From positions 1-64,000 of the forward strand of contig NZ_JAHKRM010000001.1 of the NCBI RefSeq assembly GCF_019396345.1: a DNA stretch of 64,000 bases, given 5' to 3'. This DNA comes from Nonomuraea guangzhouensis. Its GTDB lineage: Bacteria > Actinomycetota > Actinomycetes > Streptosporangiales > Streptosporangiaceae. Under the pieces are notes generated by a model, which made no database searches, was not told where the DNA came from, and worked only from the letters and a program-made list of their open reading frames with translations. The position numbers and the translations under genes were made by a program. Below, one piece after another: positions 37,711 through 60,993 of this stretch. How positions within the stretch are numbered: the first letter of the stretch is position 1; each line of letters opens with the position of its first letter.

Positions 37711-37735
37711 GTCCCCATGATCCCGCCTGTGCCGG

Positions 37736-39139: not shown

Positions 39140-39152
39140 TTCCCTACAGTGT

Positions 39153-40783: not shown

Positions 40784-40786
40784 CCG

Positions 40787-42016: not shown

Positions 42017-42019
42017 GGC

Positions 42020-43087: not shown

Positions 43088-43104
43088 GTCCAGGCACTGT
43101 CCTC

Positions 43105-44538: not shown

Positions 44539-44606
44539 GGTATGACCTCCTCGTGAGGTGGCTGAGATGCCGAGACTCTTACAGAGCACATGCATCACGA
44601 CAAGGG

Positions 44607-46182: not shown

Positions 46183-48867
46183 TTAGTTGGCCAATTGAAC
46201 GGTGGCGATCTCCCAAGGGCGCAGTGCAAGGCGGACAGTTCCGGAGGAGACAGGCAGCGGGTCGCCTGGGCGGCCTCGGAGGTCGGCGTGGCGGGCCTGG
46301 GTGAACGAGCCGGAGATGACCGCCTCCGCGGAGCTGTCCGACAAAGCCACGACCCGGAGTTCGTGCCGGCCGTCGCGGACCCTGAGCGAGGTCATGACCA
46401 CGCCGTCGCCCGTCACCGACAGACCGGGGGCCGCCGGGGGCAGGGTGAGTGACGGGTCGCCGGTGCCGGGGACCGCGAGGAGGTCGTGCCGGAACGTCTC
46501 GGCCGCCGGCGGCACCGCCTCCCACGAGCCGCTGTACGGCATGAGCGCCAGGCTAACCGTGCGCAGGCCGCGTGACTGGGCGGCCGGGGTCGGCAGCTGG
46601 GGGCCCGCCGGCTCGGGGCGCATGGCGTGCAGGTTGCGTGAGAGGTAGCCGACCGAGCGCAGCAGGGTGAGGGCGAGCTCCGCGCCGCCGTCGACCAGCT
46701 CGTACTCGGTGACGTGCTCCAGCAGCGCCGCGACCCCGCCGGCGGCCACCCACCCGGAGGCCGGGAACGTGGGCAGCGGCTCCTCGCCACAGCCCGGCTC
46801 CGCGGTCAGGCCGCGGGTGACGACCGCGAACTGGCCCTCCGCGTACGAGGCCGCCGCCCGCGCGGGCAGCGGTACGTGCAGGCGTACCCGGTGGTCGGAG
46901 CAGCGGTTGTCGAACGAGACGTGCAGTCTGACGTACGGCTCGCCGGCCCGCAGTTCGACCCGCGTGTCGACGACGATCTCCTCGGTCGTCCCGGTCCTGG
47001 CCGCGGCCGGGATCTCCGGGGTGCCCTCGATGCCCTGGCCCGCGGCGGGCCAGCGGTAGGTGCGGCGGACGTCGAAGGCGGCCAGCAGCGGCCCCGAGTA
47101 GACCGGCGTCAGCTCGACCGACTCCGGGTCCGACACGATCCGGTCATCGGCCGGGGGCGCGTAGTTGTAGGTGTCGCCCACGTCGCCGCCGTCCACGATG
47201 CGGCCCGCGCCCGTGAGGGTGGTGCCGTCGGCGCCGGTCAGCGTCAGTGTCCCGTCCGCCGCCACCTCGACCCGCAGCAGCCCGTTGTCGAGCGCCCGCT
47301 CCTCGGCCCGCACCCCGGCGACCGGCGCACTCACGGACGACGCCGACGGGTCGTACGGCGCCGGGCGGACGCTCGTGTGTCCCAGGGGCGGCGTCTCGAC
47401 GAGCGCGGCCACCGTGCGGCGGGGCTCGGCGACGATGCGTACCCGGGTCACCCCGTCCAGCGCCCCACGTACCTGCGCCACGTTGAAGGCCACCGCGGAC
47501 TCGCGCGCCACCGTGAACGTCAGCGTGCCGTCGTCCACCGACCAGCCGGTGATGTGCTGACCATACAGCTCCGTGCCGTGGATGAAGGTCAGCGCGGTGG
47601 CCGGGTCCATCTCGGCGTCCAGCAGCAGCGTGGGCGCGTACTCCAGAGTCTGCGCGGGCACCGGCGCGCCGTCAGGGTCCACCAGCGGGTCCCGGCCCGC
47701 CACGTCCACCAGCACGACGCCGCGCCGGGCGGCGGGTGTCGGGTTGACGACGAGCACCCCGTCCGACGGTACGGCGGCGGACAGCCTGGCGGTCACCATG
47801 TCGCGTACGGCCTGCCCGAGCTGCTCGGCCTCGGCGATGCGCGCGGCGACCTGCTGGGCCGTGTCGTCGACGCCGCAGCCGGTCACCGAGTCGTGCCCGC
47901 TGGCGTCCACCAGGCGCCACCACGCCATGTCGAGGAACCGGCCGGGCCAGTCGCCGCCCCACAGCGTGGCCAGCGGCTCGGCGTAGCGCTCGACCATCCG
48001 CTCGGCCCGGCCCATGGCCTGCTTGACGTGGGCGCGTACGGAGATGACGCCGGGCAGGATGTTCGCGCGGGCGTGTGAGCGCAGCTCCCCGGAGACCCGG
48101 GGCAGCCCCTCCACAGAACCCGAATAAGCCCCGATATAGCCGGTCAAAGTGTCCATGCGGGCGCCGATGTCGGCCACCATGCCGGGCAGCCCGCGTACGG
48201 GAGCCGAATGGTCGGTCCCGTACATCGCCAGCAGCGCGCCCTCGGGCCCGTGCCACTCCCGCATCCGCTGGATGAACTCGGCGGCCCGCTCCGGCAACTG
48301 CGCCGGATCCTCGAACAGGTGCGCCCCGTTGCCATATCCACCGGCGGGCAGGTACTGCGTCCGCAGAGCCGTGCCGTCAGGCGCGACCCAGGCGAAGGCG
48401 TCGGTCACCACGGACGACGGCACCCCGCGATAGACGCAGGCGTGCAGCAGCCCGGCCCGCCGCAGAATCTGCGGCATCTGCGCCGTGTGCCCGAACATGT
48501 CAGGCAGGTAGCCCACCGCCATGGCCCCACCGAGCTTGTCGGCCCGGTTCATGCCCAGTTCGAGGTTGCGCACGATGTTCTCGCCCGAGCACAGGAACTC
48601 GTCGAGCAGGATCTGCCACGGCCCGACCGCCAGCCGCCCGGACTCCACCAGGGCGGCGATGCGGTCGCGGTTCTCCGGCCGGACCTCCAGGTAGTCGTCG
48701 ACGCAGGCCAGCTGACCGTCGAGAGTGAAGTGGTAGTCGGGCTCGCGCTCCATCGTGTCGAGCACTTCGTCGAGCAGCGCCACCAGCCGCAGCCGGAACC
48801 GCTGGAAGGGCTCGTACCACTCCCGGTCCCAGTGCGTGTGCGGGACGACGACGATTTCGGCGCTCAC
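46183..48867 (-). CDS. GH38 alpha-mannosidase, cytoplasmic
   Basis: An 894-residue glycoside hydrolase of family 38. The zinc-binding HTHWDREWY is at residues 10-18, and the catalytic nucleophile is the Asp in GYLPDMFGHTAQMPQ near residue 120. Further zinc-site residues lie in the SGHDSVTGCGVDD segment, followed by the long beta-sandwich C-terminus. There is no signal peptide, so it cleaves alpha-mannosides that have first been imported. It is the last gene of an eight-gene operon with a carbohydrate ABC importer and overlaps the dehydrogenase gene by 4 bp. Confidence 0.92.
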   Translation of the reverse strand: MSAEIVVVPHTHWDREWYEPFQRFRLRLVALLDEVLDTMEREPDYHFTLDGQLACVDDYLEVRPENRDRIAALVESGRLAVGPWQILLDEFLCSGENIVRNLELGMNRADKLGGAMAVGYLPDMFGHTAQMPQILRRAGLLHACVYRGVPSSVVTDAFAWVAPDGTALRTQYLPAGGYGNGAHLFEDPAQLPERAAEFIQRMREWHGPEGALLAMYGTDHSAPVRGLPGMVADIGARMDTLTGYIGAYSGSVEGLPRVSGELRSHARANILPGVISVRAHVKQAMGRAERMVERYAEPLATLWGGDWPGRFLDMAWWRLVDASGHDSVTGCGVDDTAQQVAARIAEAEQLGQAVRDMVTARLSAAVPSDGVLVVNPTPAARRGVVLVDVAGRDPLVDPDGAPVPAQTLEYAPTLLLDAEMDPATALTFIHGTELYGQHITGWSVDDGTLTFTVARESAVAFNVAQVRGALDGVTRVRIVAEPRRTVAALVETPPLGHTSVRPAPYDPSASSVSAPVAGVRAEERALDNGLLRVEVAADGTLTLTGADGTTLTGAGRIVDGGDVGDTYNYAPPADDRIVSDPESVELTPVYSGPLLAAFDVRRTYRWPAAGQGIEGTPEIPAAARTGTTEEIVVDTRVELRAGEPYVRLHVSFDNRCSDHRVRLHVPLPARAAASYAEGQFAVVTRGLTAEPGCGEEPLPTFPASGWVAAGGVAALLEHVTEYELVDGGAELALTLLRSVGYLSRNLHAMRPEPAGPQLPTPAAQSRGLRTVSLALMPYSGSWEAVPPAAETFRHDLLAVPGTGDPSLTLPPAAPGLSVTGDGVVMTSLRVRDGRHELRVVALSDSSAEAVISGSFTQARHADLRGRPGDPLPVSSGTVRLALRPWEIATVQLAN

Positions 48868-49952
48868 GCGGCTTCCCCTCCGATCGGCAGGTCATGCTGT
48901 ACGGCGAAGCAGGCGGCGATGCTCTGGGCCGTGACGATGTCGGCCAGCCCACCGGCCGCGGCGGTGAGCGGCGGCTCGCCCTCGTTGACGTAGGCGTGGA
49001 AGGCGGCCAGCTGCACCTCGAACGCCTCGGTCACGTCCCGCCATTCGGTCCGGCTCTCCGCACCGGCGACCCCCGAGACCACGGTCAGCGTCGTGGGCGC
49101 GTTCATCAGGTAGGGAGAGGGGAAGACCAGCTCCAGCGAGCCCTTGTCGTGGTGGATGGCCACGGTCTCCCGGTAGGCCGTGTAGTCCTCCAGGTAGTGC
49201 CACCGGATCGAGAACCGCCCGCTGACGGGCAGCGTCCCGGAGACCTCGATGGACCCCGGACCCGGCCCCCACGTCTCAACTGCCGAAATATCGGCAGGCG
49301 ACCCGGTAAAGCGCCTCAAGAGCGACAAATCGTGGCATATCGAGCCGAGGGCCACCCCGTAGAGGGCCCGGACCGAGTCGGGAGCCGAGTCCCCGAGCGC
49401 CCGGGAGACCAGCGCGTCCTCCGCCGCACGCAGCGAGGCCAGCAGCTCGGGGTCCACGTCACGGCCCGCCGTCAGGTTCGCGAAGGCCAGCTGGGACCCG
49501 GCGCTCGGGTGCAGCACGGTCACCTCGACCGACCGGATCGCGGCCGGACCGCCCAGCTCGGCCAGCAGCTCCTCGGCCCGGCGCACGGCCGGGTCGTACT
49601 GCTTCATGTAGCCGACCATCAGCCGCCCTTCGGGCAGCGCCTCGACCTCGGCCCTGGTCAGCGCGAGCGGCTTCTCGCAGAGCACGGCGTAGCCCGCGGC
49701 CAGCGCCTGGCGTACCGGCTCGCCGTGGGAGCCGGAGGCGAGGATGAGCACGGCGTCGAACCCGCCCTCGGCCAGCATGCCCTCCACGACCGTGAAGCGC
49801 TTCGGCGCCCCCAGCCGGTCGCCGACGGCGTCCGCGGCGGTCCGTGACAGGTCGCAGACGGCGGTCACCTCGAACAGGTCACGGCGCCTCGACAGCAGCG
49901 GCACGTACACCGCCTGCGTGACGGCACCGCACCCGACAAGCGCGATCTTCAA
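48864..49952 (-). CDS. Gfo/Idh/MocA-family NAD(P) dehydrogenase
   Basis: A 362-residue oxidoreductase. The Rossmann motif VGCGAVTQAVYVPLL opens the protein, the conserved CEKPLAL motif lies near residue 93, and the catalytic His is in SICHDLSLLRRF. The family includes inositol 2-dehydrogenase (IolG) and sugar dehydrogenases. The gene is coupled to the GH38 gene and shares a regulon with iolB, iolC and iolD, so oxidation of a cyclitol or of the released sugar is a reasonable guess. Substrate identity cannot be read from sequence. Confidence 0.87.
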   Translation of the reverse strand: MKIALVGCGAVTQAVYVPLLSRRRDLFEVTAVCDLSRTAADAVGDRLGAPKRFTVVEGMLAEGGFDAVLILASGSHGEPVRQALAAGYAVLCEKPLALTRAEVEALPEGRLMVGYMKQYDPAVRRAEELLAELGGPAAIRSVEVTVLHPSAGSQLAFANLTAGRDVDPELLASLRAAEDALVSRALGDSAPDSVRALYGVALGSICHDLSLLRRFTGSPADISAVETWGPGPGSIEVSGTLPVSGRFSIRWHYLEDYTAYRETVAIHHDKGSLELVFPSPYLMNAPTTLTVVSGVAGAESRTEWRDVTEAFEVQLAAFHAYVNEGEPPLTAAAGGLADIVTAQSIAACFAVQHDLPIGGEAA

Positions 49953-49986
49953 AGCCCGATCCTCCAGCGTGGGGTCAGTCTGGGGG

Positions 49987-50880
49987 TCACAGTCCCAGCT
50001 CTCTCAGCTTCTCGCGGTTGGCCGCCTGATCGGCGATGTTCCGCTCAACCGACCGGCGGCCCGGCAGGGTGTCCTGCTCGATGATGACCCAGCCCTGGTA
50101 GCCGATCTCGTCGAGCACGCGGACGACACCCGGCAGGTCCAGCTCGCCCTCGCCCAGCGGGGCGAACCCGCCGCGGCCCATGAGCTCGCGCAGGTCCACG
50201 CCGTCGGCGAGGGCCTGGCCGAGTATCGCGGTGTCGCCGTCCTTGATGTGCACATGGCCGACCCGGTTCGACCAGTCGCGGAGCGCGGTCACCGGGTCGC
50301 CGCCGGCCAGCAGCAGGTGGCCGGTGTCGAGGCAGAGCTGCACGTCGGTCAGCTCCAGCAGCCGTTCGACGTCCTCGGGCGTCTCGACGTACGTGCCCAG
50401 GTGGTGGTGGAAGGCGGGCTCGAAGCCGCGTTCCCGGCAGCGGTCGGCCGCGATCTGCACCCGGGAGGCGTAGCCGGGCCAGTCGGCGGCGGCCAGCCCC
50501 GGAGCGTTCCCGCCCGGCCTGGCGAACCTGGCCGGCGAGCCCGAGCAGCCGAGCGTGGGCCGCGGCGCCAGGTGTTCGGGAGCGGCCGGAGCGGCGGCGA
50601 ACACGTCGAGCGTCGCCTCCAGCGCGACCAGCCCCTTCTCGAACTCCACGGGGTCGCTGTAGCGCAGGTCGGCCCAGCCGCCGGCGAGCAGCAGCCCGTC
50701 GAGCCGCTTCACCAGGTCCGCGCCGGTGCCCAGGTAGCCGATGGGTCCCAGGTCGATGCCCGCGTAGCCGGCGTCGGCGAGCGCGCGGACCATCCGGTCG
50801 GCGGTCAGCGGCGGCGGCGCGTCGGCCAGCTCGAACACACCGAAACTCACGGGGGCGTTGGCGACTCGTATCACTCGCAT
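49987..50880 (-). CDS. TIM-barrel sugar isomerase/dehydratase (IolE/IolH-like)
   Basis: A 297-residue xylose-isomerase-like TIM barrel. It starts RVANAPVSFGVFEL, has a metal-ligand pattern in FHHHLGTYV, LDTGHLLLAGGDP, VGHVHIKDG and a final Glu in GWVIIEQD, as in inosose dehydratases and sugar-phosphate isomerases. With the dehydrogenase next to it, the pair resembles IolG/IolE. Overlaps the PHP metallohydrolase gene by 10 bp. Assignment to 2-keto-myo-inositol dehydration is inference. Confidence 0.85.
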   Translation of the reverse strand: MRVIRVANAPVSFGVFELADAPPPLTADRMVRALADAGYAGIDLGPIGYLGTGADLVKRLDGLLLAGGWADLRYSDPVEFEKGLVALEATLDVFAAAPAAPEHLAPRPTLGCSGSPARFARPGGNAPGLAAADWPGYASRVQIAADRCRERGFEPAFHHHLGTYVETPEDVERLLELTDVQLCLDTGHLLLAGGDPVTALRDWSNRVGHVHIKDGDTAILGQALADGVDLRELMGRGGFAPLGEGELDLPGVVRVLDEIGYQGWVIIEQDTLPGRRSVERNIADQAANREKLRELGL

Positions 50881-52055
50881 AGCGCTATTACCTCGTTCTC
50901 ATACGTTTCCAGGCGATGCCGTCCCTCTCCCACAGGGACTCGTACCCGCTCACCGCGGATGACCTGGCGATCGCCCCCAGGGCGCACCAGGACGAGGCCG
51001 TCGGCGTCGAGCGCGAGCAGTTCGTCGCCCAGCCGGAGCAGCAGCGGCTCGCCGGGCCCCGCGGAGATCGCGGTACGGCCCGCGGCGACGGCATCGAAGA
51101 TCGTGCTGGTGTCCTCGGCCAGGACCCAGGTGGTGGGCGCGCCCGGCAGGCCGTCGTCGCCGATCCGGTGGAAGTCGCTGGCGCCGATCGCGACCAGGTC
51201 CGGGTGCCAGGCGTCGGCCCAGGCCAGGGGCGCGCCCCAGCGCCGGTCCCACCAGCCGGAGTGCCAGACCTCGGCGATCCGCGGCCGTTCGGCCACCGGC
51301 TGGAGCCAGGCGCAGTCGCCGCCGAGCGGGTGGTTGATCGAGATCAGCCCGCCCTCGCGCGCGGCGTGCCGGACCCAGGAGTCGGCGGGCTGCCGGAAGT
51401 CCACCCAGCCGACGTCGCCGAACACGTTGGCGTGCCCCCGGTCGGTGGTGACCTCCTGGCCGGGCAGCAGCGCGATGCCGCGGTCGTCCCCGAGCCATGG
51501 GTGGTGGCTGACGGTGTTGTGGTCGGTGACGACCAGGAAGTCGAGGCCGCGGCCCTTGGCCAGCTCGGCCAGCTCGGGGACGGTCAGCACGCCGTCGCTG
51601 TGGACGGTGTGGGCGTGGAAGTCGCCGGCGAACCAGCGCAGGCCGTCGACACCGGGCAGGTCGCGGCGCGGCGGCCGTTCCCCGTGCGGCGGCTCCTCGA
51701 CCACCGGCCGCGGCGGCACGGCGGACTCGGTGATGATCTCCAGCGTGTAGTCGAGGCCCTGCGGCGGCACCCGGTGCAGCCGCAGCCACACCTGCCACGT
51801 CCCCGCCTTCAGCTCGCCGGGCAGGTAGCCGGGCGTCGCCCAGTCGGTGGTGATCGTGTACTCGTCGCGCGCGCCGCCCGACCAGCCCCGGAACCCCTCG
51901 GGCGAGCCGCACCCGAGATCGAGCACCCCTTGCGACCGGTCGAAACTCAGCCGCACGGTCAGCGCGGCCGTGCCGCCGGGCACCTCGAAGGGCACCTCGC
52001 GCAGGATCCGCTCCAGCCGGTCGTCCAGGCTCCAGTGGCCGCGGATCAGGGTCAT
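50871..52055 (-). CDS. CehA/McbA-type PHP-domain metallohydrolase
   Basis: A 394-residue protein. The first 140 residues form a beta-rich domain, followed by a PHP domain with metal ligands in DFHAHTVHSDG, VTDHNTVS, GQEVTT, INHPLGGD and GASDFHRIGDD. CehA-like proteins are metal-dependent phosphoesterases or amidases. Cytoplasmic. Its place between the ATPase gene (4-bp overlap) and the isomerase gene (10-bp overlap) suggests it removes a phosphate or phosphodiester from the imported compound (inference). Confidence 0.87.
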   Translation of the reverse strand: MTLIRGHWSLDDRLERILREVPFEVPGGTAALTVRLSFDRSQGVLDLGCGSPEGFRGWSGGARDEYTITTDWATPGYLPGELKAGTWQVWLRLHRVPPQGLDYTLEIITESAVPPRPVVEEPPHGERPPRRDLPGVDGLRWFAGDFHAHTVHSDGVLTVPELAELAKGRGLDFLVVTDHNTVSHHPWLGDDRGIALLPGQEVTTDRGHANVFGDVGWVDFRQPADSWVRHAAREGGLISINHPLGGDCAWLQPVAERPRIAEVWHSGWWDRRWGAPLAWADAWHPDLVAIGASDFHRIGDDGLPGAPTTWVLAEDTSTIFDAVAAGRTAISAGPGEPLLLRLGDELLALDADGLVLVRPGGDRQVIRGERVRVPVGEGRHRLETYENEVIALCE

Positions 52056-53122
52056 GCCGACACCAGCTCGCCGTCGCGGTAGACCAGGGCCCGGTCGCGG
52101 CGGGGCGTGGCGAAGCCGTCGACGCCCAGCTCGGGCTCGTCGCCCTCGGGCACGACCGCTTGGACGAGCACGTCGCCGACCTCCAGCGTCACCAGGTGGG
52201 ACGCGCCCAGGTTCTCCACGATGGCCACCTTTCCGCCCAGGGAGCCCTCAGCGGGCTCGGCCGAGTAGGTGTTGTACTCGGGCCGCACGCCGTACACGAT
52301 CCGCTCGCCGTCGACCAGCAAGCCCTCGGCCGAGACGGGGACCGGCACCTTGCACCCGGCCACCTCCAGCGTGTCACCGCGGACGGTCCCGTCGAGCAGG
52401 TTCATCGGCGTCGAGCCGATGAACCCCGCGACGAAGGTGTTGGCGGGCCGCTGGAACACCTCGGCCGGGGTGCCGATCTGGCGGATGTGCCCGGCCTCCA
52501 TGACGGCCATCCGGTCGGCCATGGCCAAGGCCTCGGCCTGGTCGTGGGTGACGAAGACGGTGGTCACGCCGAGCTCGCGCTGGAGTTTCTTCAGGAACGT
52601 ACGGGCCTCCAGCCGGAGCCGGGCGTCGAGGTTCGACAGCGGCTCGTCGAACAGGAACGCCTTCGCCTGCGTCGCCATGACGCGGGCCAGCGCGACCCGC
52701 TGCTGCTGGCCGCCGGACAGCTGGCCGGGGCGCCGGTCCATGAGCTGGTCCAGGCCCAGCCGGGTGCCGACCTCCAGGGCCTTGCGCTGCCGGTCGGCCT
52801 TGCCGACCTTCTTGATGCGCAGCGGGTAGGCGATGTTGTCGGTGACGTCCATGTGCGGGAACAGCGCGTAGTCCTGGAAGACCATCGCGATGTCCCGACC
52901 GCCCGGCTGGACGCCGGTGACGTCGCGGTCGCCGATGACGACGGCGCCGCCGGTGGCGGTCTCCAGCCCGGCGATCGTGCGCAGCAGCGTGGTCTTGCCG
53001 CAGCCGGACGGGCCGAGCAGGGCGAAGAACTCGCCGTCGGGGATGGCCAGGTCGAGCGAGTCGAGCGCTTTGACTCCCCCGGGATAGACCTTGGTCAGTC
53101 CTCGCAGTTCGATTGCGGCCAT
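52052..53122 (-). CDS. Carbohydrate ABC transporter ATPase (MalK/UgpC-like)
   Basis: A 356-residue ATPase with Walker [10 protein letters not shown], signature SGGQQQR, Walker B FLFDEPLSNLD, H-loop THDQ and a C-terminal TOBE region from about residue 240. Most actinomycete CUT1 importers borrow the shared MsiK ATPase, so a dedicated ATPase is notable. Its ATG shares one base with the stop of the permease gene upstream. ATG at 53122 rather than an earlier in-frame codon is clear because upstream sequence is the permease in another frame. Confidence 0.92.
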   Translation of the reverse strand: MAAIELRGLTKVYPGGVKALDSLDLAIPDGEFFALLGPSGCGKTTLLRTIAGLETATGGAVVIGDRDVTGVQPGGRDIAMVFQDYALFPHMDVTDNIAYPLRIKKVGKADRQRKALEVGTRLGLDQLMDRRPGQLSGGQQQRVALARVMATQAKAFLFDEPLSNLDARLRLEARTFLKKLQRELGVTTVFVTHDQAEALAMADRMAVMEAGHIRQIGTPAEVFQRPANTFVAGFIGSTPMNLLDGTVRGDTLEVAGCKVPVPVSAEGLLVDGERIVYGVRPEYNTYSAEPAEGSLGGKVAIVENLGASHLVTLEVGDVLVQAVVPEGDEPELGVDGFATPRRDRALVYRDGELVSA

Positions 53123-53940
53123 CAGCGCTTGATCCCTCCGTGGAAGCGGAAGCCGTACTTCTTGCTGACGAACAGGTACATGAGCACCACAGGGACCGAA
53201 TAGAGCAGGCCGAACGTGGACAGCAGGGTGAGGTTGGCCTGGCCGCCCTCGGTGTACAGCGTGTACATGATGACTGCCGCGGGCTGCTTCTCGACATCGC
53301 TCAGCAGCAGGTACGGCATCAGGAAGTTGCCCCACACGTTGGCCACGGCCCACACCGCGATCGTCGCCAGCCCCGGCCGTACCAGGGGAACGACCACGTG
53401 GCGGACGATCTGCAGCGGCGAGGCCCCGAAGACCCGCGCCGACTCCTCGTACGACTTCGGCGTCGAGTCCATGAAGTCCTTGAGCATGAAGATCGCCGCG
53501 GGCAGCAGGCCACCGGTCAGGATGAGGATCAGCCCGAACTGCGAGTCGATCAGGTTCAGCTCGACGGCCAGCTGGAACAGCGGCACCATCGCGGCCGTGC
53601 CGGTGATGATCGAGGACAGCAGCAGCAGCGCGTAGAGCAGCGCGTCGCGTCCCGGCAGCCGCACCCGGCTCAGCGCGTACGCGGCCAGCGCCGCGAACAG
53701 CACCACGAGCAGGGCCGTGCCGACCGCCAGCACCAGCGAGTTCACCAGCGACGGCAGCGCGTACGGGTGCTCCAGGATCGCCGTGAAGTTGTCCATGGTG
53801 AAGTCGGGCACCCGGACCTCGTAGGTGGGGTCCGAGGTGAACGGCGCGGCGGCCAGCCACAGCAAGGGGATGGTGAAGAAGGCCAGCAGCACCGCGATCA
53901 GCGTGTAGAAGCCGATCCGGCCCAGCACGAACCGCGTCAT
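53122..53940 (-). CDS. Carbohydrate ABC permease (MalG-like)
   Basis: A 272-residue permease with six helices. The EAA loop is YEESARVFGASPLQIVRHVVVPLVRPGLATI. The N-terminus ends helix 1 with FTIPLLWLAAAPFTSDP as in CUT1 MalG homologues. It overlaps the MalF-like gene by 4 bp and the ATPase gene by one base. It forms the channel with its MalF-like partner. Confidence 0.92.
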   Translation of the reverse strand: MTRFVLGRIGFYTLIAVLLAFFTIPLLWLAAAPFTSDPTYEVRVPDFTMDNFTAILEHPYALPSLVNSLVLAVGTALLVVLFAALAAYALSRVRLPGRDALLYALLLLSSIITGTAAMVPLFQLAVELNLIDSQFGLILILTGGLLPAAIFMLKDFMDSTPKSYEESARVFGASPLQIVRHVVVPLVRPGLATIAVWAVANVWGNFLMPYLLLSDVEKQPAAVIMYTLYTEGGQANLTLLSTFGLLYSVPVVLMYLFVSKKYGFRFHGGIKR

Positions 53941-54863
53941 TTCTTACTCCTGAGCAGGCGCAGGTAGAACACCGCCACGACCAGGTTGATCAGCAGGATC
54001 ACCGTGGAGACGGCGGCGCCGTAGCCCAGCTCCTGGCCCAGCAGCGCGACCTTGTAGACGTGGACGGCCAGCACCTCGGTCTGACCGTCGGGCCCGCCCG
54101 CGGTGAGCATGAACGGGGTGAAGTCGTTGAACGTCCACAGGCTGATCAGCAGGAGGTTCGTCAGGATGTGTCCCCTGATGTGGGGGAACACCACGTCACG
54201 CAACTGCTGCCAGCCGGAGGCCCCGGCCAGGCGGGCGCTCTCCAGGTGCGAGGGCGGCACGTTCCCGAGCGCGGCGCCGTACAGCATCATCGAGAACGCG
54301 GCGCCGCGCCAGGTGTTGAAGACGACGATCGACAGCATCGGGTGGTCGAGCAGCGGCGCGAAGCCCGGCAGGTGGAGCAGCGCCTGGAGCGTGCCGCCGT
54401 CGCGGTCGAGCAGCGCCACCCACAGGAACGAGACGACGGCGCTGGGCAGGATCCAGGCCAGGATGACCAGGCCCTCGACGGCCCGCTTGAGCGGCCCGGT
54501 GCGATCACGCATCAGCCAGGCGATCGTGAACCCGAGCACGACCTGGCCGATGACGGCCGACCCGAGCACGAACTGGACGGTCAGCCAGGTGGAGTCCCAG
54601 AACGCGGGATCGGAGACCGCCTTGACGAAGTTGTCGAAGCCGACGAGCTTGGGCTCGGCGGCGGCGGTGCCCGTGAGGCGGTAGTTGGTGAGGCCGAGGT
54701 AGAGGACCCAGAGCGCGGGGAAGACCAGGAACACCGCGATCAGCGCCAGCGCGGGCGCCACGAAGGCGCCCGCTCTCAGCCTGCCCAGGCCCGCCGCGTC
54801 AGAGCTGTAGCGGCGGGCGGGCGCGTCATCGACGACCTCAGGAGGCGATGTTGCCTGCGCCAC
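53937..54863 (-). CDS. Carbohydrate ABC permease (MalF-like)
   Basis: A 308-residue permease with six helices and a 30-residue cytoplasmic N-terminal tail. The conserved loop is LESARLAGASGWQQLRDVVFPHIRGHIL. The FVAPALALIAVFLVFPALWVLYLGLTNY helix is typical of CUT1 permeases. The start at 54863 makes a 26-bp overlap with the binding-protein gene, unusually long for this operon, so a start slightly downstream is possible. Confidence 0.9.
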   Translation of the reverse strand: MAQATSPPEVVDDAPARRYSSDAAGLGRLRAGAFVAPALALIAVFLVFPALWVLYLGLTNYRLTGTAAAEPKLVGFDNFVKAVSDPAFWDSTWLTVQFVLGSAVIGQVVLGFTIAWLMRDRTGPLKRAVEGLVILAWILPSAVVSFLWVALLDRDGGTLQALLHLPGFAPLLDHPMLSIVVFNTWRGAAFSMMLYGAALGNVPPSHLESARLAGASGWQQLRDVVFPHIRGHILTNLLLISLWTFNDFTPFMLTAGGPDGQTEVLAVHVYKVALLGQELGYGAAVSTVILLINLVVAVFYLRLLRSKK

Positions 54864-56232
54864 CGACGATTCCTTCGAGCTTCTTCTGGTAGTCGGCGGC
54901 GGCCTGGTCGGGTGCCGTGCCCCCGACGACGGCGGCCGTGGCCTCCTGGAGCGCGGCCGACACCTGCGGGTAGACGGCGACCGGCGGCCGGTAGGCCGTC
55001 AGCGGCAGCACCTTCTCCGAGATGAACGTCAGCAGCGGCTCCCCGGCGAGGATCTCCTTGTTGACGTCCGTACGCGGGGTGATGCGCACGTTGCCGTTCT
55101 TGGTCTCCTCCTTCAGCCCTTCCGGCGAGAGCGTGAAGGCCAGCAGGTCGAAGGCCTCCTTCGGATGCTTGCTGTTGGGATTGACGGTACGCAGCGCGCC
55201 GCCCGACATGCTGACGAAGTCCTGGCCGCGCAGCCCCTTGCCCGGCTCCATAGCCGGGATCATGGCGTAGCCCACGGTCTGGTCGCGGTCGGCCATCTTG
55301 GCCACGCCGGTCTGGGGGTTGACGACGCCGCGCCAGAAGTAGTCGCCCTCCATCAGGATGCCGATCTTGCCGCCGGCGAACTGCTGGAAGGACTTGTCGC
55401 GGCCCTTGGCCTCCTGCTGGAGCTTGGGGTCGCCGAGGCCGCTGCCGCCGTAGATCTTCTGGTAGAGGCCGAGCGCGTCCTTGAGCGGCTGGGAGGCGCC
55501 GGTCCACTTGCCGTCCTTCTGGACCTCACCGCCCGCGCCCGCCAGCAGCGGGAGCACGCCCTGCATCGAGGTGGCCTCGCCCATCGCGGTGCCCGCGTTG
55601 ATCTGGATCGGCACCGGGACGCCCGACGACTTCAGCTTGGTGCCGGCGTCGAGGATCTCCTGCCAGCTCTTCGGCTGCCAGTCGGCCGGCAGGCCCGCCT
55701 TCTGGAAGAGCGTCTTGTTGAAGTAGAGCACCCGGCCGTCCGTACCGACGGGCAGCGCGTACTTCTTGCCGTTGAACGTGGCCAGCCCCTGCACCGACTC
55801 GGGGATCTGCTGCCAGCCGTCCCAGCTGTCGGCGCTCGCCCCGACGACGTCGGACAGCGGCTTGATGTAGCCCGCCTCGGCGAACTCGCCGGCCCAGATG
55901 CCGTCGATGTCGATCACGTCCGCGCCCTTGCCCGACTTCAGGTCGAGGGAGAGCTTGGTCTTGTACTGCTCGTCGTCGACACCGCTGGGGACGAACTTGA
56001 CCTTGACGTCCTTCCCCTTCGCCTTCTCGGCCGCCTCGAACTTGGGGACGACCCAGTTGGCGAGGAAGTCGGCCGCCGCCGCGTTCTTGCCACCCGCGAT
56101 GGCGTTCTGCGCGATGGTTAACTCGATCGTGTCCCCTCCGTCGCCGCCGGACGACTGGCCGCACGCGGCGAGCCCCAGCGTGGACACGGCGAGGACCGCG
56201 ACCATGCCAACCGACCTATTCCGCAATCCCAT
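54838..56232 (-). CDS. Carbohydrate-binding lipoprotein of the ABC importer
   Basis: A 464-residue solute-binding protein. The signal peptide ends in lipobox LAAC (Cys24), so it is a surface lipoprotein. The mature part has the CUT1 (family 1) pattern: GKKYALPVGTDGRVLYFNKTLFQKAGLP, KIGILMEGDYFW and a C-terminal VYPQVSAALQEATAAV. It should deliver an oligosaccharide-like ligand to the permeases. It is the first gene of the operon. A copy of the 23-bp operator lies 39-61 nt upstream of its ATG. Confidence 0.92.
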   Translation of the reverse strand: MGLRNRSVGMVAVLAVSTLGLAACGQSSGGDGGDTIELTIAQNAIAGGKNAAAADFLANWVVPKFEAAEKAKGKDVKVKFVPSGVDDEQYKTKLSLDLKSGKGADVIDIDGIWAGEFAEAGYIKPLSDVVGASADSWDGWQQIPESVQGLATFNGKKYALPVGTDGRVLYFNKTLFQKAGLPADWQPKSWQEILDAGTKLKSSGVPVPIQINAGTAMGEATSMQGVLPLLAGAGGEVQKDGKWTGASQPLKDALGLYQKIYGGSGLGDPKLQQEAKGRDKSFQQFAGGKIGILMEGDYFWRGVVNPQTGVAKMADRDQTVGYAMIPAMEPGKGLRGQDFVSMSGGALRTVNPNSKHPKEAFDLLAFTLSPEGLKEETKNGNVRITPRTDVNKEILAGEPLLTFISEKVLPLTAYRPPVAVYPQVSAALQEATAAVVGGTAPDQAAADYQKKLEGIVGGAGNIAS

Positions 56233-56270
56233 GCAAACCCTCCGACACGTCCTAAAGGCACGACGGTGGC

Positions 56271-56293
56271 CAATATGTCATGACATCCAGATG
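56271..56293 (-). promoter_or_regulatory. Operator copy 1 (binding-protein operon side)
   Basis: Core ATGTCATGACAT (56275-56286), a perfect palindrome, with flanks that on the minus strand read CATCTGG before the core and TATTG after it. It lies 39-61 nt upstream of the binding-protein ATG. It is an inverted near copy of the element at 56419-56441 (18 of 23 positions equal). Confidence 0.7.
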
Positions 56294-56418
56294 ACGTAAA
56301 GGTCCGCCGATATTTCGCCCATGTGTCCACATGCTGCATCTTTGTTACGAGGAGGTCTCGGTGCCGGCGACCCACTCAAACGGGGATTCGGTTGGCACAC
56401 AATCCCCCACATAGCGGA

Positions 56419-56441
56419 CATCCGAATGTCATGACAATATG
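56419..56441 (+). promoter_or_regulatory. Operator copy 2 (iol side)
   Basis: Core TGTCATGACA (56427-56436) preceded by CATCCGAA and followed by ATATG. It lies 38-60 nt upstream of the iolC start. Near-identical spacing to both divergent genes implies one dimeric repressor or activator controls both. GntR- or LacI-type binding is plausible; no regulator gene of either type is in the window. Confidence 0.7.
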
Positions 56442-56478
56442 CCTTAGTAGGCAATAAGGCTCCGTCTCTGGAGGTGCG

Positions 56479-57402
56479 TTGTACGACCTGATCACGATCG
56501 GCCGCTCCGGTGTCGACATCTATCCGCTGCAGACCGGCGTAGGGCTGGCCCACGTCGAGACCTTCGGTAAATTCCTCGGCGGGAGCCCGACAAACGTCTC
56601 GGTCGCGGCCGCGCGCCACGGGCTGCGCGCCGCGGTGATCACCGCGGTGGGCGCCGACCCCTTCGGAGAGTTCGTCCGGCAGGCGATCCGCGGGTTCGGC
56701 GTGGACGACTCCTTCGTGGCCACCGTCGACGGTCCCCCGACGCCTGTCACGTTCTGCGAGATCTTCCCGCCTGACGACTTCCCGCTCTACTTCTACCGGG
56801 GCGAGCATCCGCCGGACCTGCGACTGACCGCCGAATCGCTGGACCTGGCCGCGATCCGCGAGGCGAAGCTGTTCTGGTTCACCGGCACCGGTCTGAGCAA
56901 GGAGCCGAGCCGAGCCGCGCACGCCGCCGCGCTGGCCGCGCGTACGTCCGGCTGGACCGTGTTCGACCTGGACCACCGCCCGATGCTCTGGGAGTCGCCC
57001 GAAGCCTCCCAGGAGGCGGTACGCCAGGCGCTCCCGTACGCCAACGTCGCCGTCGGCAACCTCGACGAGGTGGAGAACGCGGTCGGCACCCGCGACCCGG
57101 AGGCGGCCGCGCAGGCGCTGCTCGACGCCGGGATGCGCGTCGCGATCGTCAAGATGGGCCCGCACGGGGTGCTGGCCCGCAGCAAGGACGAGTACGCCGT
57201 GGTGGAGCCGGTCAAGATCGACGTGGTGAACGGCATCGGCGCGGGCGACGCGTTCGGCGGCGCCGTGTGCCTGGGCCTGCTCAGCGGCTGGACGCTGGAG
57301 CGTACGGTCCGCTTCGCCAACGCGGCGGGCGCCTTCGTGGCCGCCCGCCTGGCCTGCGCCGACGCGATGCCCACGACTGACGAGGTGCTGGCACTCCTAT
57401 GA
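56479..57402 (+). CDS. iolC: 5-dehydro-2-deoxygluconokinase IolC
   Basis: A 307-residue PfkB-family kinase. The opening DLITIGRSGVDIYPLQ and GGSPTNVSVAAARHG are characteristic of IolC, and the catalytic Asp lies in NGIGAGDAFGGA near residue 255. It phosphorylates 2-deoxy-5-keto-gluconate in myo-inositol breakdown. The start is TTG at 56479 with GGAGG four bases before it. It leads the plus-strand iol operon and overlaps the aldolase gene by 4 bp. Confidence 0.92.
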   Translation: MYDLITIGRSGVDIYPLQTGVGLAHVETFGKFLGGSPTNVSVAAARHGLRAAVITAVGADPFGEFVRQAIRGFGVDDSFVATVDGPPTPVTFCEIFPPDDFPLYFYRGEHPPDLRLTAESLDLAAIREAKLFWFTGTGLSKEPSRAAHAAALAARTSGWTVFDLDHRPMLWESPEASQEAVRQALPYANVAVGNLDEVENAVGTRDPEAAAQALLDAGMRVAIVKMGPHGVLARSKDEYAVVEPVKIDVVNGIGAGDAFGGAVCLGLLSGWTLERTVRFANAAGAFVAARLACADAMPTTDEVLALL

Positions 57403-58304
57403 GCGACATCACGCTGTCCCGAGCCGCCCGCTACGCCCACCTGACCGACATCCGGGCCACCAGGCCGGAGGAGATCGAGCGCGCCGCCGCCCGGCGGCAA
57501 CGGCGCGGGCTGCCGGGCGAGGGCGAGCGGCTGCTGATCATCGCGGCAGACCATCCGGCCCGTGGCTCGCTGGCCGTCCGTGACCGGCCGTTGGCCATGG
57601 CCAGCCGCACCGACCTGCTCGACCGGCTCCAGACGGCGCTGGCCAGGCCCGGTGTCGACGGCATCCTGGCCTCCCCCGACGTGCTGGAGGACCTGCTGCT
57701 GCTCGGCGCGCTGGAGGACAAGCTGGCCTTCGGCTCGATGAACCGGGGCGGCCTGCAGGGCTCGGTGTTCGAGCTGGACGACCGGTTCACCGGTTTCGAC
57801 GCGGCCTCCATCGACGCCATGCGCCTCGACGGCGGCAAGATGCTCTGCCGCATCGACCCGGCCGACCACGCGACGGTCACCACGCTGGAGTCGTGCGCCC
57901 ACGCGGTCAGCGACCTGGCCCGCAGGCGGCTGCTGGCGATGGTCGAGCCGTTCTGGTCGGCGCGCACGGAGACGGGCGTCCTGCGCAACGACCTGTCGCC
58001 CGACGCGGTCATCAGGTCGATCAGCGTCTGCCAGGCGCTCGGCACCACCTCCGCCTACACCTGGCTGAAGATCCCCGTGGTCGCCGAGATGGAACGCGTC
58101 ATGGCCGCCACCACGCTGCCCGCGCTGCTGCTCGGCGGTGACCCGCCCGACATCGACGCGGCCTACGCGAGCTGGGACCGCGCGCTGCGCCTGCCGGGTG
58201 TGCGCGGGCTCGTCATCGGCCGCGCGCTGCTCTACCCTCCGGACGACGACGTCGCCGGCGCCGTGGACGGTGCGGCCGCCCTGGTTCGAGAGGTGCGCTC
58301 ATGA
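57399..58304 (+). CDS. Cgl0159-type aldolase-like (beta/alpha)8 protein of inositol catabolism
   Basis: A 301-residue TIM barrel of the Cgl0159 type, which sits in the Corynebacterium glutamicum iol cluster. Conserved pieces are RRGLPGEGERLLIIAADHPARG, NRGGLQGSVFELDDRFTGF and a candidate Schiff-base Lys in TYTWLKIPVV. It probably replaces IolJ as the aldolase that splits 2-deoxy-5-keto-gluconate-6-phosphate into dihydroxyacetone phosphate and malonate semialdehyde (inference from family and position). Overlaps both neighbours by 4 bp. Confidence 0.85.
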   Translation: MSDITLSRAARYAHLTDIRATRPEEIERAAARRQRRGLPGEGERLLIIAADHPARGSLAVRDRPLAMASRTDLLDRLQTALARPGVDGILASPDVLEDLLLLGALEDKLAFGSMNRGGLQGSVFELDDRFTGFDAASIDAMRLDGGKMLCRIDPADHATVTTLESCAHAVSDLARRRLLAMVEPFWSARTETGVLRNDLSPDAVIRSISVCQALGTTSAYTWLKIPVVAEMERVMAATTLPALLLGGDPPDIDAAYASWDRALRLPGVRGLVIGRALLYPPDDDVAGAVDGAAALVREVRS

Positions 58305-59140
58305 CATACCTTCCGTACGGAAAGGCCGCCAGCGGGCCGTGGTCGGTGGAGATCACGCCCTCCTTGGCCGGTTGGACCTACTCGGGGCTGCGCGTCGCCC
58401 ACCTCGGCGGCGACCCGGTCTCCTTCTCCACCGGCGAGGAGGAGATGCTGATCCTGCCGCTGTCGGGCTCGTGCACGGTGACGTGTGGTGCCGAGCGGTT
58501 CGAGCTGACGGGCCGCGCGTCGGTGTTCGCCGGCCCCTCCGATTTCGCCTATATCCCGATTTCTACGGATGTGACGGTGGAGGGGTCGGGACAGATCGCG
58601 TTCCCGTCCGCTCGGGCGACCCGGCGACTTGCTCCCCGGTACGTCCCGGCCTCGGCGGTGCCGATCGAGATCCGCGGCGCGGGCCAGGCCAGCCGACAGG
58701 TGAACAACTTCTGCGCCCCCGACGTCTTCGAGTGCGACAAGCTCGTGGCCGTGGAGGTGCTCACGCCGGGCGGCAACTGGTCGTCCTATCCGCCGCACAA
58801 GCACGACACCCTCCATGAGGGCGAGGCCGTGCTCGAGGAGATCTACTACTTCGAGGTGGCCGACGACGGCCTCGGCTACCAGCGCGTCTACAGCTCCGAG
58901 CGGGGCCAGATCGACACGCTGGCCGAGGTCTCGTCCGGTGACGTGGTGCTGGTGCCCTACGGCTACCACGGCCCGTCGATGGCCGCGCCCGGCTACGACC
59001 TGTACTACCTGAACGTCCTGGCCGGACCCGCCGACGAGCGGTCGATGGCGTTCTGCGACGACCCCCGGCACGCCTGGATCCGCTCCTCCTGGGCAGGCCA
59101 GGACATCGACCCGCGACTGCCGTTCGGGAGGACCTCATGA
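58301..59140 (+). CDS. iolB: 5-deoxy-glucuronate isomerase IolB
   Basis: A 279-residue bicupin. The metal ligands lie in YPPHKHDT (HxH) and in the following acidic LEEIYYFEV strand, with a late His in PYGYHGPSMAAPGYDLYYLNVLAG. This is the standard IolB pattern. It converts 5-deoxy-glucuronate to 2-deoxy-5-keto-gluconate. It overlaps the aldolase and iolD genes by 4 bp each, so the block is tightly co-translated. Confidence 0.93.
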   Translation: MTYLPYGKAASGPWSVEITPSLAGWTYSGLRVAHLGGDPVSFSTGEEEMLILPLSGSCTVTCGAERFELTGRASVFAGPSDFAYIPISTDVTVEGSGQIAFPSARATRRLAPRYVPASAVPIEIRGAGQASRQVNNFCAPDVFECDKLVAVEVLTPGGNWSSYPPHKHDTLHEGEAVLEEIYYFEVADDGLGYQRVYSSERGQIDTLAEVSSGDVVLVPYGYHGPSMAAPGYDLYYLNVLAGPADERSMAFCDDPRHAWIRSSWAGQDIDPRLPFGRTS

Positions 59141-60993
59141 CCCGCCTGACCGTGGCGCAGGCCGTGGTGCGCTTCCTGGCCCGGCAGTGGAGCGAGCGCG
59201 ACGGCGTCGAGCACCGGCTGTTCGGCGGCTGCTTCGGCATCTTCGGCCACGGCAACGTGGCCGGGCTCGGCCAGGCGCTGGCCACCTCGACCGAGGACCT
59301 GCCCTACCGCCTGAGCCGCAACGAACAGGCGATGGTGCACACGGCCGCCGCCTACGCCCGCGCCAGCAACCGGCTGTCCACCCTGGCCTGCACCACCTCG
59401 ATCGGGCCCGGCGCGACCAACATGATCACCGGCGCGGCGGGTGCGACGATCAACCGCCTGCCCGTGCTGCTGCTGCCCGGCGACGTGTTCTCCACCCGGG
59501 TCGCCAATCCGGTGCTCCAGGAGCTCGAAGACCCCCGCTCCTACGACATCTCGGTCAACGACTGCTTCAAGCCGGTGTCGCGCTACTGGGACCGGATCAA
59601 CCGGGCCGAACAGCTCCCGTCGGCGCTGCTGGCCGCCATGCGGGTGCTCACCGACCCGGCCGACACGGGCGCGGTGACGCTGGCGCTGCCCCAGGACGTC
59701 CAGGCGGAGGCGTACGACTGGCCGGAGGAGCTGTTCGAACGCCGCCTCTGGCACGTGCCGCGGCCCCGCCCCGAGCGGGCGGCCCTGGCGCGGGCGGCCG
59801 AGCTGATCAGGTCCGCGAGCCGCCCGCTGATCATCGCCGGTGGCGGGGTGATCTACAGCGAGGCCACGGCCGAGCTGCGGACCTTCGCGGAGACGTACGG
59901 CATCCCGGTCGCCGAAACGCAGGCGGGCAAGGGCGCGCTGCCCTACGGGCACCCGCTCGCGATGGGCGCGGTCGGCGCGACCGGCACCACCGCGGCCAAC
60001 GCGCTGGCCCGCGAGGCCGATCTGATCATCGGCATCGGCACCCGCTACAGCGACTTCACCACGGCCTCCCGCACGCTCTTCGCGGACGGGACGCGGTTCG
60101 TCAACCTGAACATCACCGGCTTCGACGCGGCCAAGCTCTCGGGGCTCCAGGTGGTGGCCGACGCCCGTGAGGGCCTGACCGAGCTGGCCGGGGCCTGCGC
60201 GGGCTGGAGCACCACGGAGTCGTACCGCTCGCGCGCCGCCGAGCTGTCGGCCGCCTGGGACGCGGTGGTGGACGAGGCGTACGCGCTGGACGGCCGGCCG
60301 ATGCCGCAGTCGGCCGTGATCGGCGCGGTCAACGCCGCGGCCGGCGACGACGGCGTGGTGATCTGCGCGGCCGGCTCGATGCCCGGCGACCTGCACAAGC
60401 TCTGGCGGCCGAGCGGTCCCGGCAGCTACCACGTGGAGTACGGCTACTCCTGCATGGGCTACGAGATCGCCGGCGGGCTGGGCGTCAAGATGGCCGTCCC
60501 CGACCGCGAGGTCTTCGTCATGGTGGGCGACGGCTCCTACCTGATGATGGCCCAGGAACTGGTCACAGCCGTCGCCGAAGGCGTCAAGCTGATCGTGGTG
60601 CTGGTGGACAACTCCGGCTTCGCCTCGATCGGCCGCCTGTCGGAGAGCGTCGGCGCCGAACGGCTCGGCACCTCCTACGCCTACCGGGGCTCCGGCCGCT
60701 ACGACGGCGCCGGCCTGCCGGTGGACCTCGCCGCGAACGCGGCCAGCCTCGGCGCCACGGTGCTGCGGCCCGACACGCTGACCGACTTCCGCAAGGCGCT
60801 GGAGGCGGCCCGCGCGGCCGAGGAGACGACCGTCGTCTACGTCCGTGCCGACCCCCTGCTGGACAGCCCGTCGTCGGAGGCGTGGTGGGACGTCCCGGTC
60901 GCCGAGGTCTCGGCCGCACCGGAAGGCGGTACGCTCCGCGCTTCGTACGAGTCCGAGAAGAGCGCCCAGAAGCCGCACATCACCCCCGGTTGA
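59137..60993 (+). CDS. iolD: 3D-trihydroxycyclohexanedione acylhydrolase IolD
   Basis: A 618-residue thiamine-diphosphate enzyme. The catalytic Glu is in SRNEQAMVHTAAAYAR, the middle domain has GGGVIYSEA, and the ThDP/Mg motif is VGDGSYLMMAQEL to VDNSGFAS (GDG...N). It opens the cyclohexane ring of the inositol-derived dione to 5-deoxy-glucuronate. Last of the four overlapping iol genes. iolA (malonate-semialdehyde dehydrogenase) is not in the window. Confidence 0.94.
   Translation: MTRLTVAQAVVRFLARQWSERDGVEHRLFGGCFGIFGHGNVAGLGQALATSTEDLPYRLSRNEQAMVHTAAAYARASNRLSTLACTTSIGPGATNMITGAAGATINRLPVLLLPGDVFSTRVANPVLQELEDPRSYDISVNDCFKPVSRYWDRINRAEQLPSALLAAMRVLTDPADTGAVTLALPQDVQAEAYDWPEELFERRLWHVPRPRPERAALARAAELIRSASRPLIIAGGGVIYSEATAELRTFAETYGIPVAETQAGKGALPYGHPLAMGAVGATGTTAANALAREADLIIGIGTRYSDFTTASRTLFADGTRFVNLNITGFDAAKLSGLQVVADAREGLTELAGACAGWSTTESYRSRAAELSAAWDAVVDEAYALDGRPMPQSAVIGAVNAAAGDDGVVICAAGSMPGDLHKLWRPSGPGSYHVEYGYSCMGYEIAGGLGVKMAVPDREVFVMVGDGSYLMMAQELVTAVAEGVKLIVVLVDNSGFASIGRLSESVGAERLGTSYAYRGSGRYDGAGLPVDLAANAASLGATVLRPDTLTDFRKALEAARAAEETTVVYVRADPLLDSPSSEAWWDVPVAEVSAAPEGGTLRASYESEKSAQKPHITPG

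Follow-up and report, generated by a model that had tools for sequence, protein, structure and literature searches.

The first 64,000 nucleotides of contig NZ_JAHKRM010000001.1 of Nonomuraea guangzhouensis (GCF_019396345.1; genome of 13.67 Mb), here called the window, carry two divergent operons in which a sugar importer, a PHP metallohydrolase and a glycoside hydrolase of family 38 (GH38) stand back to back with genes of inositol (iol) catabolism. The leftward operon, on the reverse strand, comprises eight genes between 56232 and 46183; the rightward one, on the forward strand, opens at 56479 and has four genes or perhaps five. The leftward operon begins with the solute-binding lipoprotein (SBP_bac_1) of a CUT1-type sugar importer (54838..56232; 120 bits in Pfam, lipobox LAAC recognised by eye), followed by two BPD_transp_1 permeases (53937..54863 and 53122..53940; PF00528 at 69.7 and 50.2 bits) and an ATPase of the MalK/UgpC type with ABC_tran and OB_MalK domains (52052..53122). 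The mechanical open reading frame (ORF) of the ATPase, 52052-53860, is too long, and the codon model puts its start at 53122. Downstream lie a CehA/McbA-type PHP metallohydrolase (50871..52055; NF038032 at 121.8 bits, cut-off 80), an IolE-like TIM barrel (AP_endonuc_2, PF01261) proposed as inosose dehydratase (49987..50880), a Gfo/Idh/MocA oxidoreductase of an insertion-bearing subfamily without Asp172 (48864..49952; PF01408, GFO_IDH_MocA 57.2 bits) and the presumably cytoplasmic GH38 enzyme (46183..48867; Glyco_hydro_38N, PF01074, at 118.4 bits, cut-off 25). The rightward operon consists of iolC, encoding 5-dehydro-2-deoxygluconokinase (56479..57402; TIGR04382 at 364.6 bits, cut-off 300), a Cgl0159-like aldolase proposed as DKGP aldolase (57399..58304; PF22649 at 406.8 bits, cut-off 27), iolB for 5-deoxy-glucuronate isomerase (58301..59140; TIGR04378 at 304.1 bits, cut-off 205) and iolD for trihydroxycyclohexane-1,2-dione hydrolase (59137..60993; TIGR04377 at 915.9 bits, cut-off 715). 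IolC, IolB and IolD thus exceed their curated cut-offs.

Neighbouring ORFs, as listed, share 1-10 bases at eight of the ten gene junctions. With the longest start the binding-protein and permease genes overlap by 26 bases, the barrel and MocA genes are spaced by 34 bases, and the gap between the operons, from the binding-protein gene to iolC, is 246 bases. A preliminary description, made from the letters of the sequence, had listed these genes; all are present, open and placed as it had them, and the family scans agree with it gene by gene. A HAD hydrolase gene starting 27 bases past iolD (61021..61686, forward; PF00702; TIGR01428 at 114.6 bits, cut-off 125.4) is a possible further member of the operon; its counterpart adjoins iolD in L063, L067 and L068, is one gene off in L073 and L084 and two in L161. 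When 80 GH38 loci were fetched from other genomes, a PHP match was found in 78 and four or all five of the importer/PHP genes in 70, and the gene order is therefore not due to chance. Genes in these loci come from a home-made codon-usage caller, and absence means absence under that caller or tblastn.

The palindrome TGTCATGACA stands upstream of both operons. Motif search and conservation together predict one operator, ATGTCATGACAT, ahead of the importer operon (56275..56286) and another, ATGTCATGACAA, ahead of iolC (56426..56437), neither assigned to a strand. The window holds three matches to TGTCATGACA at two mismatches or fewer, while 100 shuffles gave a mean of 0.40 and never three. Genome-wide there are 7 exact sites versus 2 for the reversed control; the five outside the locus lie in or beside genes that do not match pathway proteins, and are taken as chance, the genes beside them not having been scanned against family libraries.

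The operator is conserved across genera. The region upstream of the binding-protein gene could be tested in 66 of the 80 GH38 loci, and the 12-mer was found there at one mismatch or fewer in 57; the exact 10-base core precedes the gene in 51 and does so twice in 24. The nine loci that miss the 12-mer (L096, L109, L110, L113, L114, L116, L119, L121 and L123) show 2-5 mismatches each. Upstream of iolC a site is present in 38 of 43 testable loci, where in Nonomuraea the region searched overlaps that of the binding-protein gene. Across the 66 loci 82 exact cores fall within, or at most 50 bases from, the tested regions, versus 1 in the other 1.4 Mb. In four Planotetraspora loci (L052, L059, L085, L087) iolC is not adjacent and the importer site is kept, with one mismatch in two of them; in Thermoactinospora (L152) the aldolase gene and iolB-iolD are 4.3 kb apart and a third operator copy precedes iolB. 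The operons do look co-regulated, as had been supposed when they were described as one regulon.

A candidate regulator emerges from Micromonospora, where iolC and the binding-protein gene flank a GntR/UTRA gene (L090:1427-2164); some of these loci have a site to either side of it. The genome of the window matches this gene best at C83:30016-30735, with 70% identity and a one-mismatch site, ATGTCTTGACAT, just upstream, which a divergent gene could use too. In Planotetraspora and Actinomadura, paralogues of 53-61% adjoin further iol operons, at which the operator was not found at one mismatch. IolR of Corynebacterium glutamicum is of the GntR type, and TGTCATGACA presumably fits its consensus, which we take to be KGWCHTRACA; none of the papers listed by a literature search gave this consensus. 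A common operator on both operons and a candidate GntR/UTRA regulator are thus at hand, with binding predicted from sequence. The genome has six matches to GH38 that exceed the Pfam cut-off, and the copy at C73:276001-296000 (L137) adjoins a 54% relative of the regulator.

The PHP protein keeps the motifs HxHTxHSDG, TDHNT, PGQE, NHP and DxH in 13 aligned sequences, which we take to bind metal. No signal peptide was seen by eye, and its best relatives among solved structures match over short stretches at 15-24 bits. Its distribution was followed in a sample of 296 genomes of the class Actinomycetes, with thresholds of E <= 1e-50 for PHP, E <= 1e-100 for GH38, E <= 1e-40 for the MocA profile and the family cut-off for iolD; these were found in 35, 29, 40 and 121 genomes, respectively. 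iolD is present in 33 of the 35 genomes with PHP, versus 88 of the 261 without (Fisher p 2e-12), and the association persists by genus (13/13 versus 34/101; p 3e-6). PHP and iolD share a contig in 21 of the 35, and are at most 40 kb apart in 20 and at most 20 kb apart in 12. Genomes with the MocA profile have iolD in 36 and PHP in 30 of 40 cases, and those with GH38 have iolD in 26, PHP in 25 and MocA in 26 of 29.

Two clusters without GH38 show how importer and PHP relate to the iol genes. In L181, importer, PHP, regulator and a MocA and barrel of a second type diverge from iolC-aldolase-iolB-iolD-iolA. In L162, from a genome of 1.8 Mb, iolD, iolB, iolA, iolE, a barrel and a regulator diverge from importer-PHP-MocA; iolC and aldolase are absent from the stretch read. 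These clusters suggest that importer and PHP seem to be part of inositol use and that GH38 is an added step for a mannoside. As separate observations, importer and PHP lie beside a HAD gene in L168 (G120) and an adenosine deaminase gene in L169 (G244), each identified there by scan, and in G236 an MGH1-like (mannosylglycerate hydrolase-like) glycoside hydrolase (L163:13602-14885) is found near importer, PHP and MocA, at the place expected for GH38.

The nearest named relatives of the GH38 enzyme are from Nonomuraea (95% and 92% identity). Aligned to the solved structure 3lvt it keeps H(T/S)HWDREWY and PDxFG, which presumably include the catalytic residues. Its best NCBIfam model is MngB, mannosylglycerate hydrolase (NF007331), at 342.6 bits versus a cut-off of 1138. 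No signal peptide is seen by eye, and an enzyme of this kind beside the Iol enzymes points to a mannose-bearing cyclitol. The mannosyl-cyclitol proposed in the preliminary description stands in this respect, whereas GH38 as a core part does not, since L162 and L181 make it an accessory. GH38 lies within 10 kb of PHP in 23 of the 35 genomes with PHP, and wherever loci of Nonomuraea, Planotetraspora and Micromonospora were read, the two belong to one gene run. The AlphaFold2 (AF2) model of the binding protein (predicted local distance difference test, pLDDT, 84) has binders of disaccharides and oligosaccharides as its nearest solved folds, the best matches being MalE3, a Thermotoga binder, GacH and Atu4361.

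The MocA/IolE-like pair follows the iol genes closely. Among the 80 GH38 loci the pair occurs in 59, MocA only in 5 and neither in 16, and at least one lower iol gene is found in the fetched flank of 52 of the 59 versus none of the other 21. Conversely, the pair is present in 52/52 GH38 loci with iol genes nearby and in 7/28 without (L077, L091, L093, L095, L118, L124 and L125, of which L077, L093 and L118 are truncated at the end of a contig). This bears out the pairing of MocA and barrel with inositol genes that had been put forward. In nine genomes whose GH38 locus lacks both MocA and barrel (G001-G006, G009, G010 and G011), a check found iolD over cut-off in all; in six of these (G001, G002, G003, G004, G006 and G011) a single cluster unites iolG-like and iolE-like genes with iolC, aldolase, iolB and iolD, the first two labels denoting, in other genomes, BLAST resemblance rather than a family cut-off unless a scan is given. 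The distribution is roughly as expected if the pair performs the first two steps of a self-contained route. N. dietziae (G003) also has, at L140:9946-15961, a MocA (38%) and an IolE-like barrel (36%) of the window types with iolC, aldolase and iolD; ABC-ATPase matches are near, GH38 and PHP are absent, and the cluster perhaps serves another cyclitol route.

Neither member of the pair is a standard enzyme. The barrel reaches 137.4 bits with the IolE model TIGR04379 (cut-off 290), which is its best NCBIfam match; it keeps the IolE motifs HxH, DxGH and EQD, and among solved structures it matches IolE proteins best (89.2 bits, versus 28.3 for the weakly matching 2-hydroxy-3-keto-glucal hydratase 8ro4). 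MocA reaches 61.1 bits with the IolG model TIGR04380 (cut-off 355). In the whole genome none of 32 IolG matches and none of 9 IolE matches is over cut-off. The catalytic triad of inositol dehydrogenases is given in PMC9603128 as Lys97, Asp172 and His176, and the same paper argues, for several reasons, that the Asp-less OxiC is inactive. In an alignment of 27 rows Lys94 is nearly invariant and His207 invariant, and position 203, equivalent to Asp172, is Gly in at least 90%, with Asn in L091. The subfamily further carries an insertion of about 40-45 extra residues; relatives from Sinorhizobium, Martelella and Shinella (the last locus used for its MocA alone) share the insertion and the missing Asp, with Lys and His kept. 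Judged by its residues, MocA is no standard inositol dehydrogenase, and to read it as a plain one is doubtful.

Its structure model (AF2, pLDDT 92) does not discriminate, as the fold comparison gave Z scores of 30.0 for 1,5-anhydrofructose reductase, 29.7 for levoglucosan dehydrogenase, 29.3 each for glucose-fructose oxidoreductase, scyllo-inositol dehydrogenase and an NAD-dependent glycoside hydrolase, and 28.3 for DgpA, and Foldseek returned the same mixture. DgpA is also the second-best sequence match of MocA in the PDB. IolG remains below its cut-off in the PHP-module genomes G280, G236, G252, G112, G231 and G107, so that non-standard dehydrogenases would be needed in these six if inositol is used; of two further PHP-module genomes searched, G043 reached the cut-off and G254 did not.

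The module extends beyond actinobacteria. A plasmid collection held 60 records with a PHP relative. In Sinorhizobium mexicanum (L154) a DUF5054 gene and a 351-residue gene, the latter at the place of LacI in relatives, are followed by binding protein, two permeases, ATPase, PHP, IolE-like barrel and MocA, in the order importer-PHP-IolE-like-MocA of the window. Martelella (L153) has importer-PHP-GH38, and S. meliloti and Agrobacterium have importer-PHP with DUF5054, a protein for which Pfam gives DUF5054 only and whose N-terminus is GH38-like by eye. No iol gene was found within the stretches read of the rhizobial importer-PHP loci. To our knowledge rhizobia and their relatives do not make lipids of the phosphatidylinositol mannoside (PIM) type, so that a purely self-recycling role is unlikely for rhizobia. 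A Streptomyces plasmid locus with PHP was set aside, importer and GH38 being absent from the stretch read. On the S. meliloti pB plasmid the annotation splits the binding-protein gene into two parts that overlap (L157:5602-6962), and this copy looks broken. In haloarchaea, the Haladaptatus plasmids L156 and L160 carry clusters that combine PHP with GH76, an importer and a Gfo/Idh/MocA oxidoreductase.

Gene content, operon structure, the common conserved operator and the associations of importer plus PHP, and of the pair, with iol genes are computational observations. The common conserved operator, the PHP-iolD and pair-iol associations and the recurrence in Sinorhizobium make it likely that the two operons form a single co-regulated route, for a mannoside that contains inositol. 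Specifically, we propose that the two-operon regulon imports a small inositol-containing alpha-mannoside that is degraded in the cytoplasm, and consider this somewhat better than an even bet, at a rough probability of 0.57. The GntR/UTRA regulator, probably a repressor freed by a sugar or inositol ligand, would act at TGTCATGACA before both operons. PHP would remove an ester, most likely a phosphate ester or phosphodiester, from the compound taken up, and GH38 would release mannose; MocA may then oxidise the cyclitol and the IolE-like barrel dehydrate the inosose, after which IolD, IolB, IolC and the aldolase would finish the route to malonate semialdehyde and dihydroxyacetone phosphate.

The likeliest ligand is the head group of a mannosylated inositol lipid, either actinobacterial (deacylated PIM) or fungal (the mannosyl-inositol-phosphate of mannosyl-inositol-phosphorylceramide, MIPC), and the data do not choose between the two. 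Glycerophospho-inositol-mannoside, with PHP as its phosphodiesterase, is a possible ligand among several. One may extend the proposal to a pathway common to actinobacteria and rhizobia for the salvage of such head groups, with an ATP-binding cassette (ABC) importer, a PHP enzyme cleaving phosphate esters or phosphodiesters, a GH38 mannosidase, and an Asp-less MocA with its IolE-like partner replacing IolG/IolE; in this full form it is tentative and would rather be expected to fail in some part.

Several observations weigh against the proposed route. The window iol set is not the only one in the genome, since a second iolC-aldolase-iolB-iolD-iolA set lies at C58:97001-117000 (L135) and an iolG/iolE-type pair, at 264 and 126 bits and both below cut-off, on C41 (L035:9269-11034). 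Two PHP-bearing genomes, G222 and G227, lack iolD. Of the genomes with GH38 and no PHP (G034, G179, G233, G243), iolD is absent in G034, G179 and G233, and G034 and G179 have GH38 and MocA, yet neither PHP nor iolD at the thresholds used. Elsewhere PHP neighbours an adenosine deaminase (L169), a HAD protein (L168), YdjC (L174) or the MGH1-like enzyme (L163), and some PHP branches may accordingly serve other ligands. MocA lacks the aspartate at position 203. The nine genomes without the pair at the GH38 locus are not uniform, G009 having only iolE-like and weak MocA matches (the latter 32-36%) and G010 iolC-aldolase-iolB-iolD-iolA with a barrel at 30% only; G005 was searched for iolD alone. Nothing under the operator pointed to a secreted enzyme, the genes at the five other exact sites not being family-scanned. 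Finally, Nonomuraea is the dominant genus among the 80 loci, and the co-occurrence counts and Fisher tests ignore shared descent.

As observations in their own right, the C58 set is followed by genes like those of a ribose-type inositol importer, and the C41 pair lies behind a MocR-like regulator. In the window, a cluster at 36838-44598 was left out of the regulon, as it has polyamine-like genes (a potA-type ATPase and an aminobutyraldehyde-dehydrogenase-type protein) and no operator match at two mismatches; a UilS-type lactonase is matched weakly there as well (73 bits versus a cut-off of 400).

Other ligands and chemistries have to be weighed against the inositol-containing mannoside. Mannose might not be obligatory, the imported compound being an inositol phosphate or phosphodiester such as glycerophosphoinositol and GH38 an addition that brings mannosylated forms within reach. 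The GH38-free L162 and L181 agree with this, as does the distance between GH38 and PHP, which is within 10 kb in only 23 of 35 genomes; since the two genes form one run in the Nonomuraea, Planotetraspora and Micromonospora loci, and the model of the binding protein has oligosaccharide binders as its closest folds, we consider it unlikely. That same model would suit a mannoside without inositol, a mannosylglycerate-like solute or short piece of alpha-mannan served by importer and GH38, with the operator giving only a loose link to an inositol operon that serves another substrate. The MngB model as nearest to GH38 points in this direction, and so do the G236 cluster with its MGH1-like enzyme and no GH38 at E <= 1e-100, the Haladaptatus clusters, in which PHP and importer are joined by GH76 and a MocA, the rhizobial importer-PHP loci, and G034 and G179. 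The MngB score is nonetheless far under its cut-off, and a loose link is difficult to reconcile with an operator common to both operons and conserved across genera, with PHP accompanying iolD and with importer-PHP-iol clusters devoid of GH38; a ligand of this type appears quite unlikely.

A different question is whether MocA and the barrel act on the free ring at all. DgpA-type dehydrogenases with AP_endonuc_2 partners cleave glycosides oxidatively, and the pair might likewise oxidise a sugar hydroxyl of the glycoside before elimination or hydration. The missing Asp172, the rank of DgpA in the PDB search, the hydratase 8ro4 among the weak barrel matches and the fold scores of NAD-dependent glycoside hydrolases, DgpA and inositol dehydrogenases within about one Z unit would all be compatible with such chemistry, as would Jiangella and relatives, where the pair adjoins GH38 away from PHP. 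However, the barrel resembles IolE far more than it does the hydratase, the pair accompanies iol genes, and a similar pair occurs with iolC, aldolase and iolD in the GH38-free cluster of N. dietziae; we regard oxidative cleavage as improbable.

If the proposed import and cytoplasmic breakdown of an inositol-containing mannoside is true, it would show what becomes of the inositol head group of mannosylated lipids, a soil nutrient that is widespread and little studied, and give a function to one CehA/McbA PHP branch and to a MocA subfamily. The list of ligands is short, and the common operator makes co-induction directly testable. A search of the open-access literature did not find, among the titles listed, this gene arrangement or pathway, nor a paper joining mannosyl-inositol, GH38 and PIM; subscription papers and preprints were outside the search, which is no proof of absence. 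A term look-up in the inositol survey PMC9430895 likewise did not find the arrangement in the parts so covered.

The components can be compared with known systems. Like CehA/McbA enzymes the window PHP exceeds the family cut-off and keeps the motifs; CehA itself is a carbamate hydrolase, whereas removal of an ester is proposed for the window enzyme. The ATPase, permeases and binding protein match the models of Ugp-type importers, but all score below cut-off (UgpC 387/432, UgpA 80/335, UgpE 64/297, UgpB, NF008211, 38.9/411), and the best folds of the binding protein are the sugar binders named above; UgpB is not among the 50 fold matches listed, which is no evidence of difference. In Escherichia coli mannosylglycerate is taken up by a phosphotransferase system (PTS) and used by MngB, a GH38 enzyme, which is the same plan of a small mannoside imported for GH38 cleavage; the window enzyme scores well below that model and stands with an ABC importer, PHP and iol genes, not a PTS. 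The juxtaposition of a Gfo/Idh/MocA gene and an AP_endonuc_2 barrel recalls the oxidative deglycosylation pairs of the DgpA type, from which the window differs in that its barrel is IolE-like and accompanies iol genes. With the known iol pathway the locus shares standard IolC, IolB, IolD and Cgl0159-type aldolase, all over cut-off, and a candidate regulator of the GntR type, to which C. glutamicum IolR belongs, with a palindromic site. It differs in that its operons have no standard IolG or IolE, their dehydrogenase lacking Asp172, and in that an importer, a PHP hydrolase and a GH38 enzyme are placed under the same operator.

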